From Candidatus Pseudothioglobus singularis PS1 (GTDB lineage: Bacteria; Pseudomonadota; Gammaproteobacteria; PS1; Pseudothioglobaceae): DNA of 64,000 bases. The notes below the pieces were generated by a model. That model had not been told where the DNA came from, searched no databases, and was given only the letters and a program-made list of their open reading frames with translations. Location of the stretch: contig NZ_CP006911.1 in NCBI RefSeq assembly GCF_001281385.1, positions 1,364,001 through 1,428,000 of the forward strand, given 5' to 3'. Positions 1,128-20,231 of this stretch are shown piece after piece. A program made the translations under genes and the position numbers. Positions within the stretch are counted from its first letter, which is position 1, and every line of letters begins with the position of its first letter.

Positions 1128-2360
1128 ATGAATAATGTTATTAATTACGATTCAATTGCCCAATTAAAAGAGTCTTTAGAAAAAGAAGAAGATGTTTATA
1201 TTTATGGTTTTGGAATTTCTGGTCGGTGGCTTGCTGCAAATATTGATATACCAATTCAAAATTTTATCGATACTGATACAAAAAAATCAGGGAGAGAGTC
1301 GACTGGTATAAGCTGTATTACGCTTGATGAAGCAAAAGAAAAATTAACAAAAAATTCTGTAATAATAATCTCTGTCATAGACATCCAAGACGTTCTTCCA
1401 AACGTAGAAAATTTAAATATAAAAAAATGGCTTGCTCTTGGCCTATTTTTAAACAATCATCCTGTGCATATAAATCCAACAGACGAAAGTGAGGATTTTG
1501 TTAAGTACTCTCTTCAGGCAGTTGAAAAATGCCATAAATCATATCTTGTAACTCAAAGCTTATATTTAAGAAGTGTGGATGTTGTAATTACTGAAAAATG
1601 CTCATTAAAGTGCAAAGACTGCTCTAATCTTATGCAATACTATGAAGCTCCAGTTGATATTTCTTTTGAAGAAATTAAGGCAGACTTTGATGAATTAACA
1701 TCAAAAGTAGAATATATATACGAAATTAGACTAATTGGTGGTGAGCCATTTATGAATAAAGATATATATAGAATAATGGATTATTTTAATAATAATAATA
1801 AAATAACTAAACAAGTTGTATATTCAAATGCAACCATACCCCTTAAAGAGGAGTTTGTTAATATTCTTAAGCATCCCAAACTAGTCTTCACCTTAACTGA
1901 TTATCGTAAAGTAACTAAGGGAGCTATTGAAAGAAATACAGCTAAAGTTCACGAAGCCTTAAAAAGGTTAGAAGTGCCGCATAGATTGCATGATCCAGAG
2001 AATTGGACTGATAGTGGCGTTCTCCAAGACTTTAAGAGGGATGTACCTGAAATGAAGGAAATGTTTCTTGATTGTTGTGCTCGAAATTTAATAACACTTA
2101 CGGACAACAAATTATATCGCTGTCCATTTGCTGCAAATGCCGATAGATTACAAGGTATGCCTGATGATAAAAGAAACTATGTTTCCGTTAATGCATCAAC
2201 AAATGATATTAAAAAATATATAAACGATATCGAGTTTATACCCGCATGCAACTTTTGCAAAGGCAGGTCTTATAGCGCTCCAGAAATAGAGTCGGCAATT
2301 CAAACGTCCAAGCCAATCCCTTATGAAAAGTATATTAATGTTCCAATTGAAATCTTATAG
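1128..2360 (+). CDS. Radical SAM protein with N-terminal Rossmann-like domain
   Basis: The protein has 410 residues. Residues 22-110 look like a nucleotide-binding Rossmann fold (GFGISG at 27-32, then alternating hydrophobic strands). The radical SAM domain follows, with the CX3CX2C iron-sulfur motif at C158, C162 and C165 (CSLKCKDC) and a SAM-binding GGEP at 204-207. More cysteines occur near the C-terminus (DCC, RCPF, ACNFC), which could bind an auxiliary cluster. The enzyme would reductively cleave SAM to a 5'-deoxyadenosyl radical; the substrate is unknown. It is the only plus-strand gene in the left part of the locus, divergent from the flippase and convergent with a GT2 gene (12 bp between stops). 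A role in modifying a surface sugar is inferred from neighbours only. Confidence 0.82.
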   Translation: MNNVINYDSIAQLKESLEKEEDVYIYGFGISGRWLAANIDIPIQNFIDTDTKKSGRESTGISCITLDEAKEKLTKNSVIIISVIDIQDVLPNVENLNIKKWLALGLFLNNHPVHINPTDESEDFVKYSLQAVEKCHKSYLVTQSLYLRSVDVVITEKCSLKCKDCSNLMQYYEAPVDISFEEIKADFDELTSKVEYIYEIRLIGGEPFMNKDIYRIMDYFNNNNKITKQVVYSNATIPLKEEFVNILKHPKLVFTLTDYRKVTKGAIERNTAKVHEALKRLEVPHRLHDPENWTDSGVLQDFKRDVPEMKEMFLDCCARNLITLTDNKLYRCPFAANADRLQGMPDDKRNYVSVNASTNDIKKYINDIEFIPACNFCKGRSYSAPEIESAIQTSKPIPYEKYINVPIEIL

Positions 2361-5754: not shown

Positions 5755-6423
5755 CTATTTAATATTAAGTAATTTATTAATTAAATCTAATGGTGATAAG
5801 ACATTAACTGTATCCAATAATTCTTCTTTATTATCATAGCCCCAACAAGCCATTATAAAATCAATGTTGCTAAAAAATGAAGCGGTTTTATCATCCTCAC
5901 GATCGCCAACATAAACTGTATTTTCTTTTGCAAGGTTATTATTTTTCATAATAGTAGATAGCAGCCTACCTTTTGATAAAGCTGGCGGTGAAATAGAATC
6001 TAAAGCATAAATGCCTTCAAAAAAATCGCTCCACTTTAGTAAATTAATAATTTTCTGAGTAGGATAAATTCGTTTGTTAGTTGCAATATAAATCTTTAAA
6101 CCACTTTTCTTGACCTCAGTAAGCATTTGAACTATACCTGGATAAACTATTGTATTCTTGTAGCCATACGTATCATAATGAGACTTAAATTCAGCCGACA
6201 AATTATCCAAAATTTTCTTATTAGAAGTGCCAGACAATTGTTCAAGTATCTCCACTAATGGTGGGCCAATAATATCTGAATTTAGAGACTTTATTGGAGT
6301 TATACCACAGGATAGAAAAGCACTTTTAAAACTAGCAACAATACTAGAGGAAGAGTCTATTAAAGTCCCATCTAGATCAAATATAACCGTTTTTAGAGAT
6401 TTATTCTTTAGATTTACTGGCAT
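5755..6423 (-). CDS. HAD-family phosphatase (phosphoglycolate-phosphatase-like)
   Basis: The protein has 222 residues with the classical HAD motifs: FDLDGT with nucleophile D16 and acid/base D18, TNK at 115-117 as motif II, and GDREDD around 173-178 as the Mg-binding motif. The cap between residues 22 and 90 is helical, as in Gph/PgmB-like enzymes. It overlaps the upstream epimerase gene by 23 bp, which implies coupling. In this sugar locus it could remove the phosphate left by the NeuB-like synthase or activate a sugar phosphate. That role is inferred; a general phosphatase is the safe call. Confidence 0.85.
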   Translation of the reverse strand: MPVNLKNKSLKTVIFDLDGTLIDSSSSIVASFKSAFLSCGITPIKSLNSDIIGPPLVEILEQLSGTSNKKILDNLSAEFKSHYDTYGYKNTIVYPGIVQMLTEVKKSGLKIYIATNKRIYPTQKIINLLKWSDFFEGIYALDSISPPALSKGRLLSTIMKNNNLAKENTVYVGDREDDKTASFFSNIDFIMACWGYDNKEELLDTVNVLSPLDLINKLLNIK

Positions 6424-7441
6424 CTCTTAACCTGTTAATTGATAAATCTAAATCAATCCATATATCTAAATTAAATTCATTTGTGGCTCGATCTATATTA
6501 GGCACATAGTAACTACGTGAAAAATTTCCTACGGAATGAGAAGTGTCCCCTTGAATCACTATTTTTTTATTGGGTGATATTATTTTTTGTATTTTTTTTG
6601 CTAAATCTATAATTGACAATGCTTGATTTGAGCCTACATTATAAATCTTATGTTTGCAATTAATTGACATAAAACTTAAAAGCCACACTGTTAAATCGTT
6701 AACATCCATGTAAGATCGATATGCTTTACCATCACTTTTAATATTAATTGTTTCATTATGCATTGCATCAAATACAAAATTTCCAATTGCATAATGAAGT
6801 TGTAAAGGAAGATTTGGCCCAACAAATGAAAAACATCTTGCAATCACAAAGTCAAAACCGTACTTATCAGCATAATATGATATTAGAAACTCGGCACCTC
6901 TCTTTCCTTGAGCAAGTGCTGAAGAAGGTGAACTCGTATCAGGAGAACCAAAGTAAGTTTCACTAACATTCTTTACTCCCTCTGGGAGTTTGCCATAAAC
7001 AACTCCAGAGCTTGTAAAAACTATCTTCTTTACGTTGCTAAATGCTGCAAATTGAAGAACTCTTTCTGTTCCTTCAACAAGTGTCTTGTATTTTCTTAGT
7101 TGATCTTCTCCTTTGAAAGTTTCGAAAGCAGAAGTTGTCGCTAAATGAAATAATTTTGAAAATTTCTCTTTTGGAAAATCAAAATTTCTAACTTCACCCT
7201 CTAACAGGGTAATAAAACTTGATTTAACTATTTCAGCATGTTTAATTGTAAATGAACTAATATTTCTTGTAAGTACTGTGACTCTTATATTTAAATTGCT
7301 CCTTTTGTTTGACTCAATTAGTGAGTAAAGAAGCGCTGAACCAATAAAACCAGAGCCCCCAGTAATAAAAATAGACTCACCAGCTAATTCAGACCATCCA
7401 CTAAATTCCCTTTCAGAGATATTTATCTCTTCAGAATTCAT
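6401..7441 (-). CDS. NAD(P)-dependent epimerase/dehydratase-like protein lacking the catalytic Tyr
   Basis: This extended-SDR protein has 346 residues. The nucleotide-binding GGSGFIG is at 28-34, the serine strand FTSSGVVYG at 142-150, and VGPNLPLQLHY follows the active site. The usual YXXXK is not intact: the lysine (K180) lies in LAQGKRGAE, but the Tyr position is Leu176. The bases read cleanly as a CTT codon and the frame is uninterrupted. The protein may therefore work without the Tyr, for example as a reductase/decarboxylase with another acid, or be non-catalytic. Its start overlaps the stop of the upstream unknown gene (ATGA). It is a candidate for the ketone-reducing step of branched-sugar synthesis (YerF-like), but that is only contextual. 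Confidence 0.8.
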   Translation of the reverse strand: MNSEEINISEREFSGWSELAGESIFITGGSGFIGSALLYSLIESNKRSNLNIRVTVLTRNISSFTIKHAEIVKSSFITLLEGEVRNFDFPKEKFSKLFHLATTSAFETFKGEDQLRKYKTLVEGTERVLQFAAFSNVKKIVFTSSGVVYGKLPEGVKNVSETYFGSPDTSSPSSALAQGKRGAEFLISYYADKYGFDFVIARCFSFVGPNLPLQLHYAIGNFVFDAMHNETINIKSDGKAYRSYMDVNDLTVWLLSFMSINCKHKIYNVGSNQALSIIDLAKKIQKIISPNKKIVIQGDTSHSVGNFSRSYYVPNIDRATNEFNLDIWIDLDLSINRLRDASKSKE

Positions 7442-8268
7442 TCAATCGATGCAAATAAAGTCAGGCCACCAGACCATTGTTCAGAGACTTGTTTCTGTCC
7501 TGGAGTAAGCATCTGACTCATGCACCAAAACTCGAGATGCTGACCATAAGCTTTAAAACATAACATTAAACGTTCGTCAGTGTGCTTAAGAGCTGAAAGA
7601 CAAAGTACTGGTGGATAATCATCTATGTTGACCAATAAGTCAGGCGAGCCAATTAGGGCTGCTGCGGTATCTACAGCACCACTAAGGACCAGATTTTCAT
7701 GAAGTGGTAAAGTTTTCATTTGAGCTCGTTGAGAATCAATATCATACTCCTGCAAAGCTTGTGGAAAATACCATCCAACCACTGCACCTCTTTGTTGTGC
7801 ATCAAGAAAGGAGTCATATCGTGACTTATTATCGATGCTTAATTCGCCCTCTAATTTTGAACTACCCTGAAGTGTAGCTTTACAATGAAGCTCTGGAAAA
7901 GTGCCTTTAAATGAGGCGGCAACTGATGGTAATGTTGTTTTTTCTAATTCTATTCCTAAATCAATTTCTGGCTCTCTCTTAGGGCAAATAAAGGGAACAT
8001 GAACTCCAGTGAAAAGGTTTTTTAAGAGAGGTTCATTCTCTAAATTTTCTTTCAAATCTGTACATGTTGATTCAAAAGATTCAAGTTTAATGCCAGGATC
8101 AACACTAGAAAATTTCTTACTGTTTGTTAAAATTTCTGGAAAATTATAAGAAGATTTACTTATTTTATAATACGACAATGACTCTTCATTAAAAACCCTC
8201 ATACCACTGAATGGAATTCTTCTTCCTTTCTGATCAAACAAACTCTCATTATTTTCTTCTAAGCTCAT
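7438..8268 (-). CDS. Conserved-looking protein of unknown function, coupled to a radical SAM gene
   Basis: The 276-residue protein matches no family I recognise. It looks soluble: there is no signal peptide, no clear membrane helix, and the N-terminus is acidic. Towards the C-terminus is a compact region with WYFPQAL, PLHENLVLSGAVDTAA and LVNIDDYPPVLCLSALKH, alternating as in an alpha/beta domain. The gene starts 1 bp after the radical SAM gene ends and overlaps the next gene by 4 bp, so all three are probably translated in series. Its base composition is slightly richer in G+C than the neighbouring glycosyltransferase genes. It could be a partner or substrate-presenting protein of the radical SAM enzyme; this is inference only. 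Confidence 0.6.
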   Translation of the reverse strand: MSLEENNESLFDQKGRRIPFSGMRVFNEESLSYYKISKSSYNFPEILTNSKKFSSVDPGIKLESFESTCTDLKENLENEPLLKNLFTGVHVPFICPKREPEIDLGIELEKTTLPSVAASFKGTFPELHCKATLQGSSKLEGELSIDNKSRYDSFLDAQQRGAVVGWYFPQALQEYDIDSQRAQMKTLPLHENLVLSGAVDTAAALIGSPDLLVNIDDYPPVLCLSALKHTDERLMLCFKAYGQHLEFWCMSQMLTPGQKQVSEQWSGGLTLFASIE

Positions 8269-8269
8269 T

Positions 8270-9466
8270 TTAATCCTTTAATTGGTTCGTTGTATTTTCA
8301 ACATTAGGAAATGCTATATTACTCACCTTACCCGAGTCTTTAGACAACCCAGCAATAGCAAAACCTTTTTCATAAGGAACCGGAAGTAAAGGTGATTCTT
8401 TAAGATGGTCCGTAACAGTATCATTATGAAACTTAATAAAATCGAAGTTTTCTCCAATAATACATTCATCTCTGTAAGGTCCAAGCCATTTATCCTGCAT
8501 TCCACGATCAAGAATATCAGAGAGTGGCATAGTCATAACATTTCCAATTGATAGGTCCATGTATGGACATGGGACAATCTCTCCATCATGATTAATTGTA
8601 TTGATACCTTTTACAGTAATGCATTGACCCGGACGGCCATACGAAGGGGTCATGTGAGTAAAAATATTATACTTATCTTCTAAAAGTTTGAGGTAATCCA
8701 CATCATCTTTGGTACATACCCACTCATCATGGCCTCGAGCACTACCTACAGGCTTAGCAAGAGTAACGTATAAAGGTATATCTTCTTCATAGCAATATTC
8801 ACAAAACTCGTCAAATTCCTTTGAAAAAACTCTATCTTTTACAATACATGTAGAAATCAATAACTCAAGACCAGCCTCTTTTGAGGCTTTAACAGCTCTA
8901 AGCGCCCTCTTGTATGATCCAGGCTTTACACGAAAAGAGTCATGCTCTTCTTCTATAAAGCTATCCAATGAAATTTGAACTTTATAACCACCTAGAGCTG
9001 CAAACCATTTTGCCTTTTCTTCATCAAAAGTCCATCCATTCGTATCTAGGATAATGAGGTGCTTCATTGGATCAAGAGCAATAATTAACTCTTCAAGATT
9101 TTTATCTAATAGCGCCTCTCCTCCAGTTAAAACGAAACGATAAATTCCATATTCATCGGCTTGTCTAGATAACTCAGCATAATCATCAATTGTCATTTGA
9201 TGCCTGGGATCAATAGTACCCGTTTTCTTTTTTAAATCCCTGCTCATGTAGGGCTCTTCACAGCAATGTAAGCAGTGAAAATTACAAAGTGATCTATTTA
9301 TTTTAAGGCGAAGAATAGGACTTATTACACCATCAGCCATATTGCCAAAATAATTCTGGATTTTTTCATAAACCCTGGGTCTTTTAATACTTTGATCTTG
9401 ACGCTTCTTACCTTCAATTTCAGTAAGTGCAGCCTCTTCAGCATAAATTGGAATTGCAGTTTGCAT
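8270..9466 (-). CDS. Radical SAM protein with SPASM/Twitch-like C-terminus
   Basis: The protein has 398 residues. The cluster motif CX3CX2C is at C61, C65 and C68 (CNFHCLHC), GGEA at 115-118 is the SAM-binding site, and ISLDS around 165-169 is the usual MoaA/PqqE-like strand. C282, C300 and C335 in the C-terminal third (QCITVKG, VPCPYMD, DECIIG) could bind an auxiliary iron-sulfur cluster. It resembles the MoaA/NifB/PqqE group, including aminosugar and peptide-modifying members. It is first in a tight trio with the unknown 276-residue protein and the epimerase-like protein. The 105-bp gap upstream could hold its own promoter. The substrate is unknown; a sugar or an amino acid attached to the glycan is possible. 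Confidence 0.83.
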   Translation of the reverse strand: MQTAIPIYAEEAALTEIEGKKRQDQSIKRPRVYEKIQNYFGNMADGVISPILRLKINRSLCNFHCLHCCEEPYMSRDLKKKTGTIDPRHQMTIDDYAELSRQADEYGIYRFVLTGGEALLDKNLEELIIALDPMKHLIILDTNGWTFDEEKAKWFAALGGYKVQISLDSFIEEEHDSFRVKPGSYKRALRAVKASKEAGLELLISTCIVKDRVFSKEFDEFCEYCYEEDIPLYVTLAKPVGSARGHDEWVCTKDDVDYLKLLEDKYNIFTHMTPSYGRPGQCITVKGINTINHDGEIVPCPYMDLSIGNVMTMPLSDILDRGMQDKWLGPYRDECIIGENFDFIKFHNDTVTDHLKESPLLPVPYEKGFAIAGLSKDSGKVSNIAFPNVENTTNQLKD

Positions 9467-9571: not shown

Positions 9572-10066
9572 TTACAATCCTATCTTGTCCCTATATATTT
9601 CATGTTGATAAATTAAATTATCAGGACAACTTTGAAACCAACACCAGCTTCCATTTTTAGGAGAATTTTTATCGAACTTAGTTGCTTTATTTAGTGAGCT
9701 TGTTAAACTACATTCATACAATAAGGACAAAAAATGGCCTCTTAAATCACGTTCTTTATTCATAATTTCATTAATCTCAATAGGCTTCTCAATAAAAGAT
9801 ACTGTAGCATCAAGTTCATTTAATGCTACTTTATTCACCCTAGTTTCAGCTAGTTCTTTAAATCTTATTATTCCACCAGGCAAATGCCAATCTGGCCCAT
9901 AAAATTCATCATGTCTCCATGTTAATAAAGTTCCTTTCAATGGATCTTTAATTAAAAGCTCTACATTGACCATTGGTGTTAACTGACTTACAAATAAAAA
10001 TACCTCTTCTGGCAAGCCCTTTCTTGGATTAGCAATTTTACTTAATAGTTCTTTGATTTCTCTCAT
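9572..10066 (-). CDS. NUDIX hydrolase (GDP-mannose mannosyl hydrolase-like)
   Basis: The 164-residue protein contains WHLPGGIIRFKE followed by a degenerate Nudix box: the GX5E part is intact, but the usual REXXEEXG reads KVALNELDA. Such a relaxed box is also seen in Gmm/GDP-mannose mannosyl hydrolases, which use a different catalytic base. LLTWRHDEFYGPDWHLPGG resembles the Gmm pattern of a sugar-recognition loop before the box. It would hydrolyse an NDP-sugar or related nucleotide in the cytoplasm. The gene starts 3 bp after the methyltransferase gene ends, so it belongs to the same transcript as rfbFGH. Substrate unknown. Confidence 0.8.
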   Translation of the reverse strand: MREIKELLSKIANPRKGLPEEVFLFVSQLTPMVNVELLIKDPLKGTLLTWRHDEFYGPDWHLPGGIIRFKELAETRVNKVALNELDATVSFIEKPIEINEIMNKERDLRGHFLSLLYECSLTSSLNKATKFDKNSPKNGSWCWFQSCPDNLIYQHEIYRDKIGL

Positions 10067-10069
10067 GAT

Positions 10070-11206
10070 TCAGTCTTCAAATAACTCTAGTCCAAACTCT
10101 CTTAAAACTGCAATTTCAATTAAAGGATATTTCGATTTCATAATTTTAATAATTTCGTCAGAATAACTCCCTGCCATTATAATTAGTGCATCGACAGGAT
10201 CTTCTATTAATTTATCTTCTGAAACTATCTTAATATGGCTCGAAGGTGAGTATCTACCTTGTTTGAAAACAGCAGAATCAACAATATATTTAATATTTTT
10301 CTCAATTTTAGTTAATGAAATAGTTGCAAGTGCTTGGTGCCCTGCTCCCCAGATAGCAACGCCCTTTTCAGGGAATTTTTTTATGAAAAAATCTAAATCA
10401 TACTTTACTTTTTTCTTAAAGTTTTCAAAAAAATCTAAATTAGTTTTAATTCTTTTTCTTACAACCGCTGACAAAATATAGTTATGCCAAATCGATTTAC
10501 AACTTAAAACTTCAAAACCATTAAGTTGCAAAGTAAAAATTAAAGTCTCTTTAGTAAAGTACATAAGATGATCTGAGATAAATTCGGAGTATAAACCCTT
10601 TTCTAAAATCATATTAAAATTTGGAACTTCTATAAGACCTATTGAACCTTCATTTAAAATCTTTGAAAGTTCACCAAGGACTTTATTTGGATCAGGCCAA
10701 TGTTCCATAAAACTAAGACACATAAATCCATCAAATTTTTGATTTTCTATATCTGAATGTTTATCGCCTAAAAACCCCTGAGATACAGATAAATTATTAT
10801 TCACACAATAATCAACTGATTGTATTGAATACTCAATTCCGTGTGCCTCTGCACCAACAGTAGATAAAATTTCAAGGTATTCGCCCTTACCACAACCAAC
10901 TTCTAATACTTTTTTATTGGTTAAATTAAATTCTTTTACCCAAGACTTAAACTGCTTTAAGCGGAATTTTTTCATCTCTTCTGAAAAAGAACTTGCTCGA
11001 ATTACTTCCTTAAAGTATGGAACAGGAGCATTGTCAAGCTGAATCAAACCACAAGACTTACATTGAACAATAAAAAGACTTGAACCTGCATCAAATTTTA
11101 AATCTTCAGTTGTTAAAAATCCTTGAGCCGATGAAGGCATATTACTATAACTTAATAGATTATTTTTGTAGCATATAGCGTCGCAAACTCTGCAATTAAT
11201 TGACAT
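10070..11206 (-). CDS. NDP-sugar C-methyltransferase-like SAM-dependent methyltransferase
   Basis: An upstream ATG exists at 11227, but the ATG at 11206 is preferred: it follows the preceding stop by 1 bp and starts directly at the zinc-ribbon cysteines (CRVC, later CKSCGL). The resulting 378-residue protein shows three domains of the TylC3/NovU type: an N-terminal zinc-binding region, a SAM-binding core with VLEVGCGKGEYL, and a C-terminal Rossmann-like domain with VAIWGAGHQAL. These enzymes C-methylate 4-keto-deoxysugar nucleotides, usually at C3. Here a 4-keto CDP-sugar from RfbF/G/H is the natural candidate. Some relatives in glycan loci are not proven methyltransferases, so the exact reaction is open. 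Confidence 0.8.
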   Translation of the reverse strand: MSINCRVCDAICYKNNLLSYSNMPSSAQGFLTTEDLKFDAGSSLFIVQCKSCGLIQLDNAPVPYFKEVIRASSFSEEMKKFRLKQFKSWVKEFNLTNKKVLEVGCGKGEYLEILSTVGAEAHGIEYSIQSVDYCVNNNLSVSQGFLGDKHSDIENQKFDGFMCLSFMEHWPDPNKVLGELSKILNEGSIGLIEVPNFNMILEKGLYSEFISDHLMYFTKETLIFTLQLNGFEVLSCKSIWHNYILSAVVRKRIKTNLDFFENFKKKVKYDLDFFIKKFPEKGVAIWGAGHQALATISLTKIEKNIKYIVDSAVFKQGRYSPSSHIKIVSEDKLIEDPVDALIIMAGSYSDEIIKIMKSKYPLIEIAVLREFGLELFED

Positions 11207-11207
11207 T

Positions 11208-13037
11208 TCAATTATCTCTGTTAGCATTTCTAGAAATATCTAGAAGACTTATAATCATTTCTGACTCAAGTATTTTGAGAGGAAGAAGTGGGGTCATATC
11301 CTCCAGTGGCATAGAATAAATTGAACCATCTTTTTGAGGTAAAGCTGAAACTTTAGGAAGTAAAACCTCATTCTTGACTAATCGAACATCAATTATTACA
11401 GGCTGATTTGAACCTATACATTTTTGAAGAGTTTCATCTAATTCAGAAGCATCAATTACTTTTTCAAACTGAATATTATAAGTAAAAGATAATTTTTCAA
11501 GATCTGGTAATACTAGGCCAGACTCTGGGCCAGTACCAACGTATCTTTCTTCGAAATAATTACGCTGAGTATTTCTGATAGAAGCATATCCATCATTGTT
11601 CATAACCACTAATACAATCGGCAGGTTAAAGGCCTTAACTGTAGCCAACTCTTGAATATTGAGCTGCAAACTTCCATCACTTTCAATAGCAACCATTGGC
11701 TTTTTATTATTAGCAAAACAGGCACCTATAGCAGACGGTAAGCCATAGCCCATTGCGCCTAAACCAGAGGTGAGAAAAACTCTTTGGCCAACCCTATTAC
11801 GAAAAACGGTGTAGAAGGCTTCAACTGCGAGACCAGAACTTCCTGTAGAAATCAAAGTTTCTTCAGGAATATTATTTGACAAAGAATTTGCCAGATGATA
11901 GTGGGAGATCTCACCTTTATTTGGAAAAGGTTTTCCTTTATTAACTCCATATCTAGTTTTCCAATCATTGCAAGTGTCTTGCCAAAATTTAAGACCAGAA
12001 GAAGTTTTTATTTTTGTTTTTTTGATGGAATCAATAAATTTACCCGCATCAGAAACAACTGAAATTTCAATATCCATTTCAAGTTTCTTGATCTCATTTG
12101 AATCAACATCTACAATGATTTTTTTAGCCTCTCTAGCAAAGCCTTTTGAATTATATGCCGTAATGATATTATCTAATCGGCAACCAATACTTATTAATAA
12201 GTCGCAATTTTGAACAGCAAAATTTGGACCTCTTAATGCAACAACCCCTGGACGGCCAACATAAAGAGGATGGTTGAATGGTAATAGGTCAAGAGCGTTC
12301 CAAGTGCTTACCACAGGAACTCCAAGCTCCTCAACCCAATCTTTAAATGATTCAGCAGCATTTGCTAAACGAATACCATGTCCTGCAATAATTAGAGGTC
12401 TCTCTGAATTTGAGATTAAATTCTGAATATCCTTAATTACTTTATTAGGAATGTCTTTTACTTTATCTGTATTATTATTTTGCCAAACAGGAAGGTTTTC
12501 CAAAGATAACGGAGCCCCTTGAACATCAAGAGGAACATCAATCCAAACAGGTCCAGCTCGTCCATCTTTAGCCATATGATAAGCCTCTTCCAACACAGAC
12601 CTTATTTCCTGTGGGTTTTCAACAATTTTTGAGTATTTAGTAATACTCTTAACCATTTTAACAATATCAACCTCTTGGACTCCCTTTTGCCTCAAAGGTG
12701 AGTCACGAAGCATGTCACTTCTTTTACATTGACCAGATATGATCATTAAAGGAACAGATTCGATCCAAGCACCGGCAACTGCAGTGATAGCATTTGTAGC
12801 ACCTGGACCTGTAGTAACCATTGCTACACCGATATTTTCACTAATCCTTGAGTAAGCTTCTGCAGAAATTGCTGCTGCCTGCTCATGAAGGCAGGCCACT
12901 ACTTCAATTTGCCTATTCTTACCAACTGCGTCCACAAGGTGCATTGCACCACCTCCTGGCAAAAGAAAGACATTTTTAACCCCAATTTTTTCAATAAAAT
13001 CTGCTATGTAGTCAGCAACTCTATAAGTTTCACTCAC
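11208..13037 (-). CDS. ThDP-dependent acetolactate-synthase-like enzyme, candidate YerE-type sugar acetyltransferase
   Basis: The 609-residue protein has the three-domain ThDP layout: the catalytic Glu E52 in LHEQAAA, a TTGPGATNAI loop, a central Rossmann-like domain, and a C-terminal cofactor site ESDGSLQLN followed about 27 residues later by NND. Overall it looks like IlvB/acetohydroxyacid synthase. No regulatory subunit or ilv gene is near; it lies 4 bp downstream of the NeuB-like gene, in the rfbFGH transcript. In Yersinia the homologue YerE transfers a two-carbon unit from pyruvate to C4 of CDP-4-keto-3,6-dideoxyglucose to make yersiniose. The same reaction here is a strong contextual hypothesis, not proven by the sequence. 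Confidence 0.82.
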   Translation of the reverse strand: MSETYRVADYIADFIEKIGVKNVFLLPGGGAMHLVDAVGKNRQIEVVACLHEQAAAISAEAYSRISENIGVAMVTTGPGATNAITAVAGAWIESVPLMIISGQCKRSDMLRDSPLRQKGVQEVDIVKMVKSITKYSKIVENPQEIRSVLEEAYHMAKDGRAGPVWIDVPLDVQGAPLSLENLPVWQNNNTDKVKDIPNKVIKDIQNLISNSERPLIIAGHGIRLANAAESFKDWVEELGVPVVSTWNALDLLPFNHPLYVGRPGVVALRGPNFAVQNCDLLISIGCRLDNIITAYNSKGFAREAKKIIVDVDSNEIKKLEMDIEISVVSDAGKFIDSIKKTKIKTSSGLKFWQDTCNDWKTRYGVNKGKPFPNKGEISHYHLANSLSNNIPEETLISTGSSGLAVEAFYTVFRNRVGQRVFLTSGLGAMGYGLPSAIGACFANNKKPMVAIESDGSLQLNIQELATVKAFNLPIVLVVMNNDGYASIRNTQRNYFEERYVGTGPESGLVLPDLEKLSFTYNIQFEKVIDASELDETLQKCIGSNQPVIIDVRLVKNEVLLPKVSALPQKDGSIYSMPLEDMTPLLPLKILESEMIISLLDISRNANRDN

Positions 13038-13041
13038 CCAA

Positions 13042-14544
13042 CTAGCCCATCCAATGTGTCAATATAGTTTTTCTATTCTCATTAAGAGAGATACTTTCAT
13101 CTGTATAAAATGAATCATTAACAAAATGAGTACTAGAGATTTCTTCAATAACTGCTCCATCATGACTTATAAATGCATGACGCGTTTCTGGTTCAATAGT
13201 TAGCACATCTCCAGGAGAACAAGTCTGAGTCACGCCATTTAATACAATTTCTACAGTGCCATATAAAACATGAAAAGTTTCTTCTTTTTGCTTATGATAT
13301 TGTTCAGGATGTTTTTGTCCAGGAAGTGACACTAATAATTTTTTACAATAATCCCTATTTACAACAGTCAACATTGTAAGGCCAAACTCATGAAACTTTT
13401 CTAATCCATAATGATGTGATATTTCAAGCTCAGCTGATCCTGGTATTACAACATTACTATCCTTTATAATTTTTCTAACTTTTTTAACTATATCCCAAAT
13501 TTTTTCTCTCGAATCTGTCTTAATGGAATTACTAGGTGAAATTGCATCATTAACATGAATATCTTCTTTAGCATGAAATGAAAAATATTTTGACCAGTCA
13601 TTTGCAGTAAATTGTCCCTCTTCTGGAGGAAATGCAAAAAAAACATTTTCAATAGTCAATGCATCACCTTTATGTATATCTCGCTTAGCAAAAACCCCTC
13701 TTCTAAGAGAAAGCAAGCTTGCAGCCTCTTTAGGATTAACAGGAAGTCTGACATCACTAACACCACAAGTTTTTTGAGCATATAAAGCAGACTCCAGCCA
13801 AGCGTCAACCTGTTCAGGGGTTGCTGAATATTTATTAATTCCATATTTTTCAGTTTGAACAGCTACATGTTTTTCAAAAATGCTAGCACCTTTTGCAACA
13901 GCCATCTTAATGAAGTCAGTGTTAGATGTATCCTCATGCGTAGAAAAACCAATCCGAACATCTGGATAGCGATTTTTAAGAAAATCAATTTGAGAAATAT
14001 GCATTTTATCATCTGGTGTAGGATATTCACCAACACAGTGAAGAATCGCGAATTCTTTATTTCGATGCTTTAGAAAGCTTATTACTTGGTCAATAAGTTC
14101 AATAGTAGCGCCAGCAGTTGAAGCAATAATAGGCTTATCTGTTTGACTTATTTTCTCTAAAAGGGGCCAGTCACCAAAGGAACAACTTGGAATTTTAATA
14201 ATGTCTAAATCCTGAGATTCAATCACATCCACTGATTCCTCATCAAAAGGAGTTGACATAGTTAGAAAACCTTGTTTTTGAATTTCTTTAACTAGACGAT
14301 CATGATCTCCTCTTGTCAGTCGGGTTTCAGAAAATCTTTTAATATATGGAATATCGTCCCTTCCCTTCATACTAGGATGAATAAATGAATCTAGCTGACG
14401 ATATTGCAACTTAAATGCAAAAGAAAAAGGATACTTTTTGCATACTTTTCCAAATTCTTGAATTACATGAATTCCATGTTCAATATCACCCATATGATTA
14501 TTTGCTAACTCAAGAGTAAATAAATTTTCTGGTATTTTTTTCAC
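13042..14544 (-). CDS. NeuB-like sialic-acid-synthase-family protein fused to SAF and cupin domains
   Basis: The frame runs upstream to an ATG at 14625, but GGGAGAG lies 4 bp before a GTG at 14544, and that start gives the normal family N-terminus (KKIPENLFTLELANNHMGD). The protein then has 500 residues: a NeuB TIM barrel to about 270, an SAF/antifreeze-like segment (LRRGVFAKRDIHKGD), and a C-terminal cupin (HPEQYHKQKEETFHVLYG, then GDVLTIEPETRHAF). NeuB enzymes condense phosphoenolpyruvate with an aldose to form nonulosonic acids. No neuA or neuC is seen, so classical sialic acid synthesis is unsupported. With the adjacent ThDP enzyme it may extend or branch a deoxysugar. Confidence 0.83.
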   Translation of the reverse strand: MKKIPENLFTLELANNHMGDIEHGIHVIQEFGKVCKKYPFSFAFKLQYRQLDSFIHPSMKGRDDIPYIKRFSETRLTRGDHDRLVKEIQKQGFLTMSTPFDEESVDVIESQDLDIIKIPSCSFGDWPLLEKISQTDKPIIASTAGATIELIDQVISFLKHRNKEFAILHCVGEYPTPDDKMHISQIDFLKNRYPDVRIGFSTHEDTSNTDFIKMAVAKGASIFEKHVAVQTEKYGINKYSATPEQVDAWLESALYAQKTCGVSDVRLPVNPKEAASLLSLRRGVFAKRDIHKGDALTIENVFFAFPPEEGQFTANDWSKYFSFHAKEDIHVNDAISPSNSIKTDSREKIWDIVKKVRKIIKDSNVVIPGSAELEISHHYGLEKFHEFGLTMLTVVNRDYCKKLLVSLPGQKHPEQYHKQKEETFHVLYGTVEIVLNGVTQTCSPGDVLTIEPETRHAFISHDGAVIEEISSTHFVNDSFYTDESISLNENRKTILTHWMG

Positions 14545-14575
14545 AAAACTCTCCCTATATTTATTATTTGGTTTG

Positions 14576-15886
14576 TTACCAACCGATTCCAAAAAGTTCT
14601 TCCAACTTTGACACAACAAAGTCAAGATGTTGTTTCTTTAATCCAGGATATAATCCAATCCAAAATGTCTGGTTCATAATGATATCAGTATTTTTCAAAC
14701 TGCCCACAACTCTATACTCTCTATTTTGAAAATAAGGTTGTCTAGTGAGATTCCCAGCAAAAAGAAGGCGAGTTCCAATATTATAACTATCCAAATGTTT
14801 GGTCAACATAACTCTACTTATGCCAGAATCTTCTTTAATGGTTATTGGAAAACCAAACCATGATGGAGAAGAGTTCTCGGTAGGCTTTGGAAGTATTAAG
14901 AATTCTTTTAAGGTTTGTAGTTTTTCTGTCAAGTACTCAAAATTATCTTTTCTAGCTTTGACAAAATCATCAATACGTTCGAGTTGAGCCAAACCACAAG
15001 CAGCCTGCATATCCGTAATTTTTAAATTATATCCAAGATGAGAATATGTGTATTTGTGATCATAGCCTTTTGGTAAGTCTCCAAGCTGCCAGTCAAAACG
15101 CTTACCACAGGTATTATCGCAACCAGGCAAACAATAGCAATCCCTTCCCCAGTCTCTAATTGACTCAATACACATTTTTAACTGGGCATTATTTGTAAAA
15201 ACTGCTCCACCCTCCCCCATGGTAATATGGTGTGCAGGATAAAAACTTAAAGTACCAATATCTCCAAAAGTCCCAACTCTTTTACCATCATATTCAGAAC
15301 CAAGGGCATCACAAGTATCTTCAACTAGCCATAAGTTGTATTTTTCAGTAAATTTTTTGATAGCCCTAAGATTATAGGGATTGCCTAAGGTATGAGCTAT
15401 CATGACAGCTTTTGTTTTGTCAGAGTATGCTTCTTCAAGAAGATCTACATTAATATTATAAGTTGGAATATCAACATCTACAAAAACAGGCACACAATTA
15501 TTTTGAATAATTGGATTAACAGTTGTTGGAAAACCAGCTGCAACAGAAATCACCTCATCCCCAGGCATTAATCTTCTATCCCCTAGCTTAGGAGAAGTAA
15601 GAGCAGAAAATGCACACAAGTTAGCAGATGAGCCAGAATTTGTTGTAAGAACATATTTTGCACCTAAATAGTCACCAAGTTTTTTTTCAAACTCAGTATT
15701 AAAACGACCCGTTGTCAGCCAACCGTCCAAAACTGCATCTGTCATCATTTTAAGTTCATTGCTACCTATAACTTTTCCTGATGGAGGAATTATATCTCCC
15801 TCCTTAAAGGAATCATTGTTTAGATGCTCGTCACCATACTGGACAACTAAGTTCAATATTTTTTCTCTTAATTCTTTCTTGGTCAT
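14576..15886 (-). CDS. rfbH: CDP-4-keto-6-deoxyglucose 3-dehydrase (E1, RfbH/DdhC)
   Basis: This DegT/DnrJ/EryC1/StrS-fold protein has 436 residues. It carries the E1-specific [14 protein letters not shown] at 214-227, where H220 replaces the PLP-binding Lys of ordinary aminotransferases, so PMP is used for C3 dehydration. C250, C252, C256 and C260 ([12 protein letters not shown]) match the region of the [2Fe-2S] ligands of E1. The product, after reduction by an E3 partner, is CDP-4-keto-3,6-dideoxyglucose, the precursor of abequose, paratose, tyvelose, ascarylose and yersiniose. It starts 8 bp after rfbG ends. The usual E3 reductase (DdhD/AscD) is not encoded in this window. Confidence 0.94.
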
Positions 15887-15894
15887 TAATATTC

Positions 15895-16980
15895 CTATTT
15901 ATTTTGATAGTTTTGAATTTGGTTTAAACATATTTCCTTACATTTTGAAGGATTTGATCTCTCTTCTTTATGCCACTCTACAATTTTAGTTAGAGCTTCA
16001 TCTAAAGTCCATTTAGGCTTCCAATTTAAATTTTTCAAGGCTTTACTGCAATTAAGCTTAAGAAAGGCAGCCTCGTGTTCATGGAAATTTTTGTCCATAG
16101 TCCATTGTGATTTGTCACCCCACAAATACGCAATTCTTTTTACAATCCACTCTACTGGTCGAGCATCTTCATCATTTGGTCCAAAATTCCATGCTTCTGC
16201 ATGAATAGAGCCCTCTGTAAATAGTAATTCAGCTAATAGCATATAACCAGAAAGTGGCTCTAAAACATGCTGCCATGGCCGGACTGCATGAGGATTTCGG
16301 ATCTTAACTTTTTCTTTTTTTTGAAAAGCGTCAATTATATCTGGAATTAGTCTATCTTCAGCCCAATCACCACCGCCAATAACATTACCAGCCCGAACAG
16401 AGGCAATAGCTGTATTATTTTTCTGAGAATTTGTATTTGCAAAAAAACTATTTCTATATGATGAAATTAACAACTCAGAAGCACCTTTGCTACTACTGTA
16501 GGGATCAAAGCCCCCCATTGGGTCATCTTCTACATATCCTTCATAGCTCCCTGTATTTTCATAGCATTTATCAGAAGTGACCATAATTGCAGCTTTAACA
16601 TTACCAACATTTTTTATTGCTTCAAGAATGTTGACTGTGCCCATTACATTGGTTTCATATGTTTCTAAAGGGTTTAAGTATGAATATTTAACTAGAGATT
16701 GAGCAGCTAAGTGAAATACAATTTCAGGCTTGTATTTTTGAAAAATTTTTGTTAAACCTTGAAGGTCGCGTATATCTTGCCTATGACTTATTATATCATT
16801 AGCAATATGAGCTTTTAAATACAAACTTGGCTTTGAAGGTGGGTCTAGTGAAACTCCAATTACTTCAGCACCTAGGCTTTTCAGCCATAAAGTTAACCAA
16901 CTTCCTTTAAAGCCTGAATGCCCAGAAATTAGTACTTTCTTACCAGACCAGAAACTATAATTCACTTCCAAACACGCCAT
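15895..16980 (-). CDS. rfbG: CDP-glucose 4,6-dehydratase
   Basis: The 361-residue extended SDR has the family-typical [18 protein letters not shown] near 16-33, [13 protein letters not shown] with the catalytic Tyr and Lys, and [19 protein letters not shown], all diagnostic of RfbG/DdhB. It converts CDP-glucose to CDP-4-keto-6-deoxyglucose with bound NAD+. The ATG at 16980 overlaps rfbF by 19 bp. A GTG at 16965, overlapping the rfbF stop as GTGA, would give the shorter [10 protein letters not shown]-terminus that aligns better with known RfbG proteins. Neither start has a convincing Shine-Dalgarno sequence. Confidence 0.94.
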
Positions 16981-17735
16981 GGTGCTTTAGAATTAGTCCA
17001 GAGATCCTCAAGGTAATTCTTATCCCTTAAAGTATCCATAGGCTGCCAAAAGCCATCATGATTAAAAGCAATCATGTTGCCTTTTTGAGCTAAAGTCTCC
17101 ATTGGCTCATGCTCCCAAAAGGTAGTATCATCAGCAATGAACTCAATTACTTTGGGTGAAAGGACAAAAAAACCACCATTGATTCTTGCACCATCTCCTC
17201 TTGGTTTTTCTACAAAGGTCTTAACTTGTCCATTTAATATCTCTAGAGCACCAAAACGCCCAGGAGAGAAAACTGCTGTAAGAGTAGCTAGTTTTTGATG
17301 TGCCTTATGATGTCTTATCAGAGCGGCAATATCTACATTACTAACCCCATCTCCATAAGTTAGGCAAAATGCCTCTTCATCTTTAACATAGTCAAGTACT
17401 CGTTTAATTCTCCCTCCAGTCATAGTATTTTCACCAGTATCAACCAAAGTAACTGTCCAAGGCTCTGCTCTTTCTTGATGAACATGCATTTTATTGTTCT
17501 TCATATCAAATGTTACATCAGACATGTGGAGAAAATAATTTGCGAAATATTCCTTTATTAAATAACCCCTGTAGCCACAACAAATAATAAAATCATTTAC
17601 GCCATGATATGAATAAAGTTTCATAATATGCCAAAGTATCGGTTTATTTCCAATTTGAATCATGGGTTTTGGAATATTATCAGTTTCCTCACTAATCCTA
17701 GTTCCAAACCCACCCGCTAAAATAACTGCCTTCAT
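16962..17735 (-). CDS. rfbF: Glucose-1-phosphate cytidylyltransferase
   Basis: An upstream start at 17774 would overlap mtnA. The ATG at 17735 has GAAGGA at good spacing and gives the normal [13 protein letters not shown] start, so it is chosen (257 residues). The protein has the nucleotidyltransferase loop [28 protein letters not shown], and the closing [14 protein letters not shown] typical of RfbF/DdhA. It makes CDP-glucose from CTP and glucose-1-phosphate, the entry to CDP-dideoxyhexoses. The start lies 4 bp after the mtnA stop, so the CDP-sugar genes continue the salvage operon upstream. Confidence 0.95.
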
Positions 17736-17739
17736 GAAC

Positions 17740-18780
17740 TTATCCTTCAAATAATTTAGATATTTTTTTGGCATTAGGACTGAAAATAACTCCTTTTTCA
17801 GTAATTAAACCAGTTACAAGATCTGCTGGGGTGACATCAAATGCAGGATTTCTAACAGACACTCCTTTTGAAGCCCACTGATAATCTCTGAAGCCAGTAA
17901 CCTCATTTGCTGACCTTTCTTCAATAGGTATTTCATCTCCAGAAGATATTGATAGATCGATTGTTGATAAAGGACATGCAACATAAAATGGAATATTGTG
18001 CCTTTTAGCTAATACAGCTACCATATAAGTTCCAATTTTATTTGCAACATCTCCGTTACCTGCAACCCTATCAGTCCCAACCACTACAGCATCAACCTTC
18101 CCTGTTTTCATCAAATGGCCAGACATATTATCGGAGATAAGTGTAACTGGAATCTTTTCTTGGACCATTTCCCATGCAGTAAGGCGAGCACCTTGAAGAA
18201 AAGGACGAGTTTCATCAGCAATTACTGAAATTGATTTCCCTGATTCAACTGCAGATCTCACAACCCCAAGAGCTGTTCCATGTCCAGCAGTTGCTAGTGC
18301 TCCAGCATTGCAATGAGTAAGAACGCTTGAATTATTGGACAAAACTTCTGCGCCAAAACTACCCATAGTTTTGTTAATTTCAATATCCTCTCTTAATATT
18401 TTGTGCGCTTCTTTCAAAAGAATTAAAGCAATAGCTTCAGGTTCTTCATTCGTTTCAGCCATTAAATTTTTCATTCTATCTACAGCCCAAAAAAGATTTA
18501 TAGCCGTAGGTCTGCTTTCTAATAAAATCTTAAAAGCAACCTCCATACCAACCAAAAAATCCTCCAAATTAGCTTTACTTAAGCATAGTGCTTCTAGGGC
18601 TACTCCGTAAGCAGCAGCACAACCAATAGCAGGGGCTCCGCGAACCACCATGGAGTAGATTCCATCCGCAACTGATTTAGCTGTATAGTAGGATATATAC
18701 TCAAAATTTTCCGGCAATATCCTTTGATCAATCATTTCAAGATGATCTTCATTCCATCTTAAAGTTTCAATATTTTTCAC
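17740..18780 (-). CDS. mtnA: S-methyl-5-thioribose-1-phosphate isomerase
   Basis: The 346-residue protein has RGAPAIG near 47-53, the active-site cysteine C157 in [18 protein letters not shown], and D237 in [16 protein letters not shown], all diagnostic of MtnA rather than eIF2B or R15P isomerase. It isomerises 5-methylthioribose-1-phosphate, and in some bacteria 5-deoxyribose-1-phosphate, to the ribulose-1-phosphate. The start is GTG, 6 bp after the apt stop, with GGGGAG overlapping the end of apt. No mtnB, mtnC or mtnD follows, so the usual methionine salvage branch is absent here. The aldolase first in this operon is a better candidate for the next step. Confidence 0.95.
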
Positions 18781-18786
18781 AATTAT

Positions 18787-19314
18787 TTACTCCCCTTCAA
18801 ATTCGCATAAAGTAAAGACCTTCTGCCCCATATTTTGAAGTCGCTCTCTACCACCAATGTCAGGCAAGTCAATTACAAAGCAACATTCAATTATTTCTGC
18901 CTCCATTTTTTCAACTAATCTTACTGCAGCTGCAACTGTACCTCCAGTGGCAATTAAATCATCAACGATCAATACTCTTTCACCTTTTTTAATAGAGTCT
19001 ATATGGATTTCAATCTTGTCAGTTCCATACTCTAAATCATATTCTTCAAAAATGGTTTTTGAAGGCAATTTACCAGGCTTTCTAATTATGACTAGACCAA
19101 TATTCAACAAGTAAGCTAACGGGGCACCAATAATAAAACCTCTTGCCTCAACTGCAACAATTTTATCAATTTTTAAATCCTTATAACGATTATAAAAATC
19201 GTCTATAACTTCTTTAAATCCACTAGGGTCATTCAATAATGTAGTTATATCCCTGAACATAACTCCCTCAATTGGATAATTTTTTATTGTTCTGATTTTA
19301 GATTTGATAGACAC
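18787..19314 (-). CDS. apt: Adenine phosphoribosyltransferase
   Basis: The 175-residue protein has the PRPP loop VDDLIATGGT at 117-126, EARGFIIGAPLAY near 56-68, and RKPGKLP, as in Apt. It makes AMP from adenine and PRPP, recovering the adenine released by the MtnP just upstream in the operon. The start is GTG at 19314 with AGGAG 7 bp before it, and it begins 9 bp after mtnP ends. Length and motifs are complete. Confidence 0.95.
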   Translation of the reverse strand: MSIKSKIRTIKNYPIEGVMFRDITTLLNDPSGFKEVIDDFYNRYKDLKIDKIVAVEARGFIIGAPLAYLLNIGLVIIRKPGKLPSKTIFEEYDLEYGTDKIEIHIDSIKKGERVLIVDDLIATGGTVAAAVRLVEKMEAEIIECCFVIDLPDIGGRERLQNMGQKVFTLCEFEGE

Positions 19315-19323
19315 AGATAACTC

Positions 19324-20208
19324 CTAATTATTGTTCAAAACTCTTCCAGCAATAGCCTCTAACTTTCTAACTAATTTCTTATCTCTAAAGTTCTGTTGGG
19401 TAATAATTGCATTATTGAGACTTTCTTTGCAAATGCATTCTGCACTCTTGGAGTCAGCATCTATTATTGGGGCAACTTTTTTTACTAAATATCTTGCATT
19501 ATCAGCATTGTCACTTAATACCTTTATCATAGACTCAACACTTACATTATCATGATTAGGATGCCAACAATCATAATCTGTAACCATGGCCACTGAAACA
19601 TAGCATAATTCCGCCTCTCTTGCTAATTTAGCTTCAGGCATATTTGTCATTCCAACAACGTCACACCCCCAACTTCTATATAGCTCAGACTCTGCAACTG
19701 AAGAGAATTGTGGCCCTTCCATTGCAATGTATGTGCCTCCTCGGACAGTCTTAATTGACGCATCGTTTGCAATCTGTTCTATATGATGACCCAAACGATT
19801 ACAAACTGGATGAGCCATAGAGACATGCGCAACTAAACCTGGCCCAAAAAAACTTTTTTTTCTTTCAAAAGTTCTATCAATAAATTGATCAATAATTACA
19901 AACATGCCAGGTCTTAAGTCCTCCCTAAGAGAGCCAACAGCACTAACTGAAATTACATCTGTCACACCTGCTCTTTTCAAGACATCTATATTTGCTCTGT
20001 AATTTACTTCAGAAGGTGGAATACGATGACCTCTTCCATGTCTTGGAAGAAAAACCATTTTTTGCCCATCTAGTTCTCCAAATAATAGTGAATCAGATGG
20101 CTCCCCAAAAGAAGAGTTAATTTTTTTCCATTGCGTATTTTTAAGGCCATCAATTTCATAAACTCCACTTCCCCCAATAACTCCAAGAATCGTTTCTTGA
20201 TTTTTCAT
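19324..20208 (-). CDS. mtnP: S-methyl-5'-thioadenosine phosphorylase
   Basis: The 294-residue protein shows GVIGGSGVYEIDGL at the start, the phosphate-binding PRHGRGH, SAVGSLREDL, and the adenine-site MTNMPEAKLARE, all typical of MTA phosphorylases. It splits methylthioadenosine, and probably 5'-deoxyadenosine, into adenine and the 5-substituted ribose-1-phosphate. AGGAAT lies 5 bp before the ATG. It sits between the aldolase-SDR fusion and apt, and its adenine product feeds Apt. Confidence 0.95.
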   Translation of the reverse strand: MKNQETILGVIGGSGVYEIDGLKNTQWKKINSSFGEPSDSLLFGELDGQKMVFLPRHGRGHRIPPSEVNYRANIDVLKRAGVTDVISVSAVGSLREDLRPGMFVIIDQFIDRTFERKKSFFGPGLVAHVSMAHPVCNRLGHHIEQIANDASIKTVRGGTYIAMEGPQFSSVAESELYRSWGCDVVGMTNMPEAKLAREAELCYVSVAMVTDYDCWHPNHDNVSVESMIKVLSDNADNARYLVKKVAPIIDADSKSAECICKESLNNAIITQQNFRDKKLVRKLEAIAGRVLNNN

Positions 20209-20231
20209 GATATTCCTAATTGATGTAAAAA

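Follow-up and report, generated by a model that had tools for sequence, protein, structure and literature searches.

What is the role of a protein of no described family that directly follows a radical S-adenosylmethionine (SAM) enzyme in a bacterial sugar cluster? The question is raised by a 64,000-nucleotide stretch of the Candidatus Pseudothioglobus singularis PS1 genome (contig NZ_CP006911.1, positions 1,364,001 to 1,428,000; hereafter the window), in which the radical SAM gene, R, is separated by a single base (8269) from the gene of its partner, P, which in turn shares 4 bp (7438-7441) with the gene of a short-chain dehydrogenase/reductase (SDR). This layout, a 1-bp gap followed by a 4-bp overlap, had been described in a sequence-only reading of the locus and is borne out by the list of open reading frames (ORFs). 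R and P very probably form one functional module, within which P, in our view and with a probability of about one half, serves R as an accessory subunit and is not an enzyme of its own.

The partner family and its radical SAM enzyme

P is a real gene, because homologues 29-43% identical to the window protein occur in six further genomes and a profile built without the sequences of the window and of L002, a locus in a Burkholderiaceae metagenome-assembled genome, retrieves the window protein at E 1.4e-47 (computed with the database size set to 100,000). Searched alone, window P matched nothing in Pfam or NCBIfam at E ≤ 1. None of the seven members matched any Pfam family, NCBIfam returned only DicB for one of the seven (E 0.046, not credible), PHROGs gave no match for three members, and the best hit of the seven-member profile among PDB sequences (E 0.085) was no relative. 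The sequence-only reading had put P forward as the window's best candidate for an undescribed family, and, as none of the libraries searched gave a credible match, this nomination stands; the two outcomes it had named as fatal are replaced by their opposites, in that P matches no known sugar enzyme and P homologues do adjoin a radical SAM gene. P represents a genuine partner family of a single radical SAM lineage, undescribed as far as these libraries show.

Two candidate relationships were rejected. Ika8 appeared in a phmmer search with window P alone (E 5.8e-6, no single stretch significant) and was gone when profiles were used. To see whether P derives from part of R or of some other cluster protein, its profile was compared with 323 ORFs, covering those of the window, L002, L004 and L035-L041; only the three P among them were matched, and the next-best match had a probability of 10%.

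The AlphaFold model of P, based on three sequences, is weak, with a predicted local distance difference test (pLDDT) score of 46.5 and a predicted template modelling score (pTM) of 0.49. The best Foldseek match of this model in the PDB had E 0.33 and probability 0.02, as expected with so weak a model; the structures of P and R were predicted before the seven-member P alignment existed, and the Foldseek result is no proof that a known fold is absent. Across the seven members, 31 alignment columns are invariant, including R16, D103, R150, Y218, Y241, E263 and W265. They include neither Cys nor His, which argues against P being an iron-sulphur enzyme, and no Ser, Thr, Asn or Lys. All members look soluble (highest 19-residue hydropathy 1.16 to 1.56). 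From the alignment, P comprises at least two subtypes: the five members other than those of the window and L002 all carry an HH pair and a PCL motif, and four of these five (the exception being that of genome G066) carry SRH, while the window and L002 proteins are without HH and PCL and have RY in place of the others' RH.

By its CxxxCxxC motif (C61xxxC65xxC68, found in 14 of 14 close R sequences) and a PF04055 match above cut-off (65.2 bits, cut-off 29.5), R is a member of the radical SAM superfamily. Window R also matches the SPASM domain, PF13186 (25.6 bits, cut-off 21.5), for which the fused R-P protein of genome G1370 scores under the cut-off (18.4 bits). Further cysteines stand at positions 282, 300 and 335, beyond which window R has none, and all six are invariant in the 14 sequences, the window's included. 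A full SPASM domain has a seven-cysteine motif that binds two auxiliary clusters, and the twitch domain is a shortened SPASM that binds one, with a C-x9-15-G-x4-C pattern and a later Cys. With three invariant auxiliary cysteines, the 14 R do not carry the seven-cysteine motif. The pattern C-x12-G-x4-C is present in R of the window, L002 and the seven genomes with R and no P described below; the other five P-bearing R retain the cysteines, yet do not fit C-x9-15-G-x4-C.

Among the best 25 of 46 NCBIfam matches, R lies under every cut-off (AhbD, the best, 74 against 500; MoaA 72.9 against 284.05; BlsE 38.8 against 400) and corresponds to no named radical SAM equivalog. Its closest PDB match by sequence is the peptide maturase SkfB (E 9e-13). 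The predicted model of R, itself weak (pLDDT 53.8), aligns with viperin-like 6b4c (Z 14.6, root mean square deviation 3.9, 231 residues aligned), MoaA 1tv7 (14.1, 4.3, 238), AbmM 8wm2 (13.6, 4.2, 236), BlsE 7vob (13.2, 4.0, 230) and DesII 8hzv (9.8, 5.4, 243). The substrate cannot be read from the fold, because peptide enzymes align as well as the sugar and nucleotide enzymes (PqqE 6c8v 14.3, 4.6, 237; SkfB 6efn 13.7, 4.1, 253).

Occurrence of the partner among radical SAM lineages

P was found in seven genomes: those of the window and L002, and G066, G1400, G1348, G1435 and G1370. In six of them R is directly followed by P, with gaps of 1 bp (window), 0 (L002), 59 (G066), -10 (G1400), 16 (G1348) and 46 (G1435). 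In G1370 the two are fused in one 630-residue ORF, with R at 10-369 and P at 378-629 joined by a short linker. The suggestion that R and P are a fixed pair is thus supported in all seven P-bearing genomes, by adjacency or fusion. Whether they are always together has a two-sided answer: P comes with R in seven of seven cases, but seven of the 14 close R known are without P.

Beyond the window, two members were found with P as the query: a contig scan gave one locus, L002, and a profile search among 398 genomes of the phylum gave G066, which is of another class than the window genome (we take it to be Magnetococcia). The remaining four came through R, when an R profile run on 198 genomes of L002's order returned four R besides that of L002, each carrying P. 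Every P found by a P query stood beside R; the four found via R are evidence that R of this lineage is accompanied by P, not that P never lacks R. Searches for P returned only the window genome's own copy from 58 relatives and from 369 genomes of its class, only that of G066 from 48 genomes of the G066 class (E ≤ 0.001), and none from 190 genomes of the G060 class or from the viral contigs, plasmids and phages searched; these genome sets overlap, and their sizes are not additive. The R-query searches (phylum, L002's order, the family of G781 and the window genus) sought no P standing without R. At 1e-30, R occurred in one of 299 genomes of G781's family and one of 29 of the window's genus, each already known.

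The phylum search for R (398 genomes, at most four candidates scored per genome) gave close homologues at 372-382 bits in seven genomes other than G066 and that of the window, the next tier lying at 181 bits and below. All seven belong to G066's class, and their R are 36-40% identical to window R. No P is detectable in these genomes (E ≤ 0.001; completeness 100, 100, 99, 93, 90, 82 and 65%) or among ORFs of at least 60 residues around their R. Nine loci of lower-scoring radical SAM relatives (181 bits or less, 22-28% identical to window R), also without P, were treated as paralogues.

In a maximum-likelihood tree (LG+G4), the seven P-bearing R split from the seven P-less R and five outgroups with an ultrafast bootstrap (UFBoot) of 99, and an earlier FastTree analysis with fewer R members agrees (0.978). 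Since each of the seven P-less R loci holds at least three of the enzymes of the sugar cluster described below, P is not obligatory for such clusters. On the evidence of these sequences, P is restricted to one lineage among the 14 close R and is not tied to the pathway as such.

The sugar cluster and a displaced pair

The genes around the pair are collected in Table 1.

Table 1. The R-P pair and the neighbouring sugar genes of the window.
Feature	Coordinates	Strand	Evidence or remarks
HAD-family phosphatase	5755-6423	minus	PF13419, 98.4 bits
SDR, NAD-dependent epimerase/dehydratase	6401-7441	minus	PF01370, 97.5 bits
P, 276-residue partner protein	7438-8268	minus	undescribed family, soluble-looking; adjoins or fused to R in 7/7 genomes
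R, radical SAM enzyme, 398 residues	8270-9466	minus	PF04055 and PF13186 above cut-off
Nudix-like protein, directly upstream of R	9572-10066	minus	PF00293, 13.6 bits, under the 21.1 cut-off
Sugar C-methyltransferase-like protein (CMeT)	10070-11227	minus	PF08484 Methyltransf_14, PF13489
Thiamine diphosphate (ThDP) enzyme, acetolactate-synthase-like, YerE-like by context	11208-13037	minus	three TPP domains
NeuB-family synthase with SAF and C-terminal cupin domains	13042-14625	minus	PF03102, PF08666, PF07883
RfbH-type pyridoxal phosphate enzyme, CDP-4-keto-6-deoxyglucose 3-dehydratase	14576-15886	minus	NF011936, 744 bits (cut-off 423)
DdhB, CDP-glucose 4,6-dehydratase	15895-16980	minus	TIGR02622, 497.9 bits (cut-off 278.45)
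DdhA, glucose-1-phosphate cytidylyltransferase	16962-17774	minus	TIGR02623, 453.7 bits (cut-off 300.25)

By their scores, all above curated cut-offs, DdhA, DdhB and RfbH place the pathway to cytidine diphosphate (CDP)-4-keto-3,6-dideoxyglucose in the window. The ThDP enzyme scores under the equivalog for acetohydroxyacid synthase (TIGR00118, 379.8 bits against 538.35), and no YerE model is among the matches listed. In the main text of PMC12247030, YerE is described as coupling pyruvate to CDP-4-keto-3,6-dideoxyglucose and ErwE as coupling a hydroxylated alpha-keto acid, and for most branched CDP-sugar clusters the sugar product is still to be identified. Analogy with these systems suggests a CDP-linked C4-branched deoxysugar as the product of the window's cluster, whose end result is probably an uncommon branched sugar of the cell surface; among its enzymes, the NeuB-family synthase might supply the alpha-keto acid that the ThDP enzyme uses as donor.

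The ORFs of relatives were compared with the window's cluster proteins by BLAST within limited stretches, and in some cases the contig ends before the cluster does. The ThDP and NeuB enzymes lie near R in the window, L002, G1400, G1348, G1435 and G1370. RfbH is found in the window, L002, G1348 and G1370 and in a separate cluster of G066, and none was seen in the 20 kb around R of G1400 and G1435. P is immediately followed by the HAD gene in G1400, G1348 and G1435, and Nudix-like homologues, 46-58% identical, occur in nine of the 13 other R loci. CMeT was present in nine of nine genomes with R and in neither of two without it (11 chosen genomes). At the L035 locus CMeT, Nudix and SDR are present, but RfbH and DdhB only as distant relatives; in the stretch of G1348 examined there was no CMeT, Nudix or SDR. 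The SDR measures 346-369 residues in five P-bearing genomes and 466-499 in five P-less ones, the P-bearing G066 having 499.

Six SDRs of the G066 class (for example L036:3557-5056 and L056:11596-13095) are of 466-499 residues, and one of the two that were scanned has a C-terminal HAD_PNKP match under the cut-off; in the window, G1400, G1348, G1435 and G1370, HAD is encoded by a gene of its own. The SDRs of the G066 class are thus possibly fused to a HAD domain, which by sequence would give this pathway a second fusion.

In G066 the sugar cluster and the R-P pair lie on different contigs. The pair is on C15; on C20, which holds the cluster, CMeT adjoins the Nudix gene, and no R or P, nor any remnant by tblastn, was found. 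G066 R is 73-78% identical to four R of L002's order (Burkholderiales), with which it groups at UFBoot 95, against 44-47% to seven R of its own class. Its ThDP enzyme is closer to four of its own class (69-71%) than to those of the Burkholderiales (58-59%), as is its NeuB (65% to one own-class sequence, 56-58% to Burkholderiales), and its SDR has the own-class length. For CMeT (51-59% own class, 50-54% Burkholderiales) and SDR (36-43%, 36-41%), identity separates neither origin. A Burkholderiales-like R beside two native-looking enzymes among the four compared (ThDP and NeuB) points to acquisition of the pair as a unit, and the simplest reading of these sequences is that in G066 R and P arrived together and replaced a P-less R. 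The G066 pair (L004) is followed by a MobA-like nucleotidyltransferase (L004:10944-11543, PF12804) instead of sugar genes.

Other genes of the window may be noted. Directly upstream of the cluster, at 17740-22205 (minus strand), lie MtnA, adenine phosphoribosyltransferase, methylthioadenosine phosphorylase and a bifunctional class II aldolase/SDR. Another radical SAM protein of the window (1128-2360, plus strand) is 51% identical to L002:10748-11959, near L002's pair, and L002 carries one more radical SAM gene between the two (9711-10712); these clusters may need several radical steps. At 34071-35895 (minus strand), adjoining ORFs of 282 and 303 residues near an A/T run look like the halves of one broken gene, presumably of the carbamoyltransferase type.

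Role of the partner and comparison with known systems

We favour P as an accessory subunit over P as the enzyme of a following step because the sister R manages without P in what is apparently the same kind of pathway. For the working of the pair we infer joint transfer of the two genes, contact between the two proteins, a substrate and a reaction, as follows. As a module of two genes, R-P would belong to a pathway for a surface-polysaccharide sugar, in which DdhA, DdhB and RfbH would make CDP-4-keto-3,6-dideoxyglucose; the YerE/ErwE-type ThDP enzyme would branch the sugar at C4, perhaps with an alpha-keto acid from the NeuB-like enzyme, and the C-methyltransferase, SDR and HAD proteins would decorate the branched sugar. 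R would bind the radical SAM [4Fe-4S] cluster and probably, through its three extra cysteines, one auxiliary cluster, cleave SAM to generate a 5'-deoxyadenosyl radical, and abstract hydrogen, either from the CDP-sugar or from one of its precursors, leading to oxidation, dehydration or epimerisation. P would bind R and hold or gate the substrate, or complete the active site of R, and the sister R lineage would work in the same kind of cluster without it.

Several observations weigh against P as an accessory subunit or against the history proposed for the pair. Fusions and gene pairs mark enzymes of consecutive steps equally well; P is enzyme-sized, with invariant charged and aromatic residues, and its model supports no interface with R. 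The product of the P-less clusters could be another sugar: within the limited stretches compared, their seven loci hold the ThDP enzyme in five cases (one partial), a close RfbH in four and NeuB in one, and two of the genomes are 82 and 65% complete, so that P could be missed there. The fusion is seen in one genome of seven and may be a sequencing error. P diverges about as fast as the pathway's methyltransferase and SDR (identity between window and L002: P 43%, CMeT 45%, SDR 37%), and although R-R and P-P identities correlate (r 0.94, 21 dependent pairs), vertical inheritance by itself would produce this. The P tree is poorly resolved among five members (34-46). In G066, CMeT and SDR are not clearly native, and the SDR tree, unrooted like the other trees of its cluster enzymes, sets G066 weakly with the P-bearing side (0.801).

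In the principal alternative, P could be an enzyme in its own right, for example a reductase, isomerase or hydrolase acting on the product of R, with pairing and fusion serving channelling and the P-less clusters making a related, different sugar. This is possible, though it is not the outcome we expect. The R-P fusion, the size of P and its invariant columns suit it, as do the SDR lengths, which, G066 excepted, also differ between P-bearing and P-less clusters, and the analogous AprD4/AprD3 system; P has, however, no credible match to any enzyme family, and the replacement of HH and PCL (present in five of five other members) and SRH (four of five) in the window and L002 proteins would be odd for an active site.

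We consider it improbable that P is a protein substrate, modified post-translationally by R to become the working component. Peptides or proteins are frequent substrates of SPASM-type radical SAM enzymes, the best PDB sequence match of R is a peptide maturase, and P directly follows R; but half of the close R lack P, a substrate fused to its maturase would be modified just once, and the invariant positions of P include no Cys, Ser, Thr, Asn or Lys. Between the two roles that the sequence-only reading had offered, partner or substrate, it is the partner that holds up. That P is a hitch-hiking or regulatory gene with no part in the reaction of R, as its want of a recognisable function might allow, is very unlikely in view of its adjacency in seven of seven genomes, the G1370 fusion and the displaced pair in G066.

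We tentatively propose that P founds a new protein family, possibly with a new fold, that serves one radical SAM lineage, and that R and P form an exchangeable cassette which can replace a self-sufficient enzyme, as seemingly in G066, for a radical step on a CDP-linked C4-branched sugar. One enzyme is found here in two natural versions, with and without a 270-residue partner, in seemingly the same kind of pathway, and the two versions, together with the fusion and the apparent replacement, make the role of the partner directly testable.

To our knowledge, radical SAM enzymes occur chiefly as stand-alone proteins or with small peptide-binding partners. R shares the radical SAM fold, as far as its weak model indicates, and the cluster motif with BlsE, DesII, AbmM, viperin and MoaA, for none of which we know of a P-like partner; in the best 25 of its 46 NCBIfam matches, those to BlsE and MoaA included, it lies under the cut-offs. 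AprD4/AprD3, a radical SAM enzyme and the reductase of the next step, is alike in that a radical SAM enzyme is tightly linked to a second protein in a sugar pathway, but AprD3 is a reductase of known fold, whereas P matches no family.

Within a literature in which subscription papers are thinly covered, nothing was found that links 'radical SAM' with 'yersiniose' or 'YerE-like' or that describes a radical reaction with a CDP-linked C4-branched sugar; in the texts available, 'radical SAM' and 'branched-chain sugar' stood together only in reference lists, on other matters. With the YerE/ErwE-type clusters for yersiniose, erwiniose and caryophyllose, the window's cluster has DdhA, DdhB, RfbH and the ThDP enzyme in common. 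What sets it apart from them is the radical SAM step, a term that occurs 0 times in the main text of PMC12247030, and the R-P module would place a radical step in branched CDP-sugar clusters.

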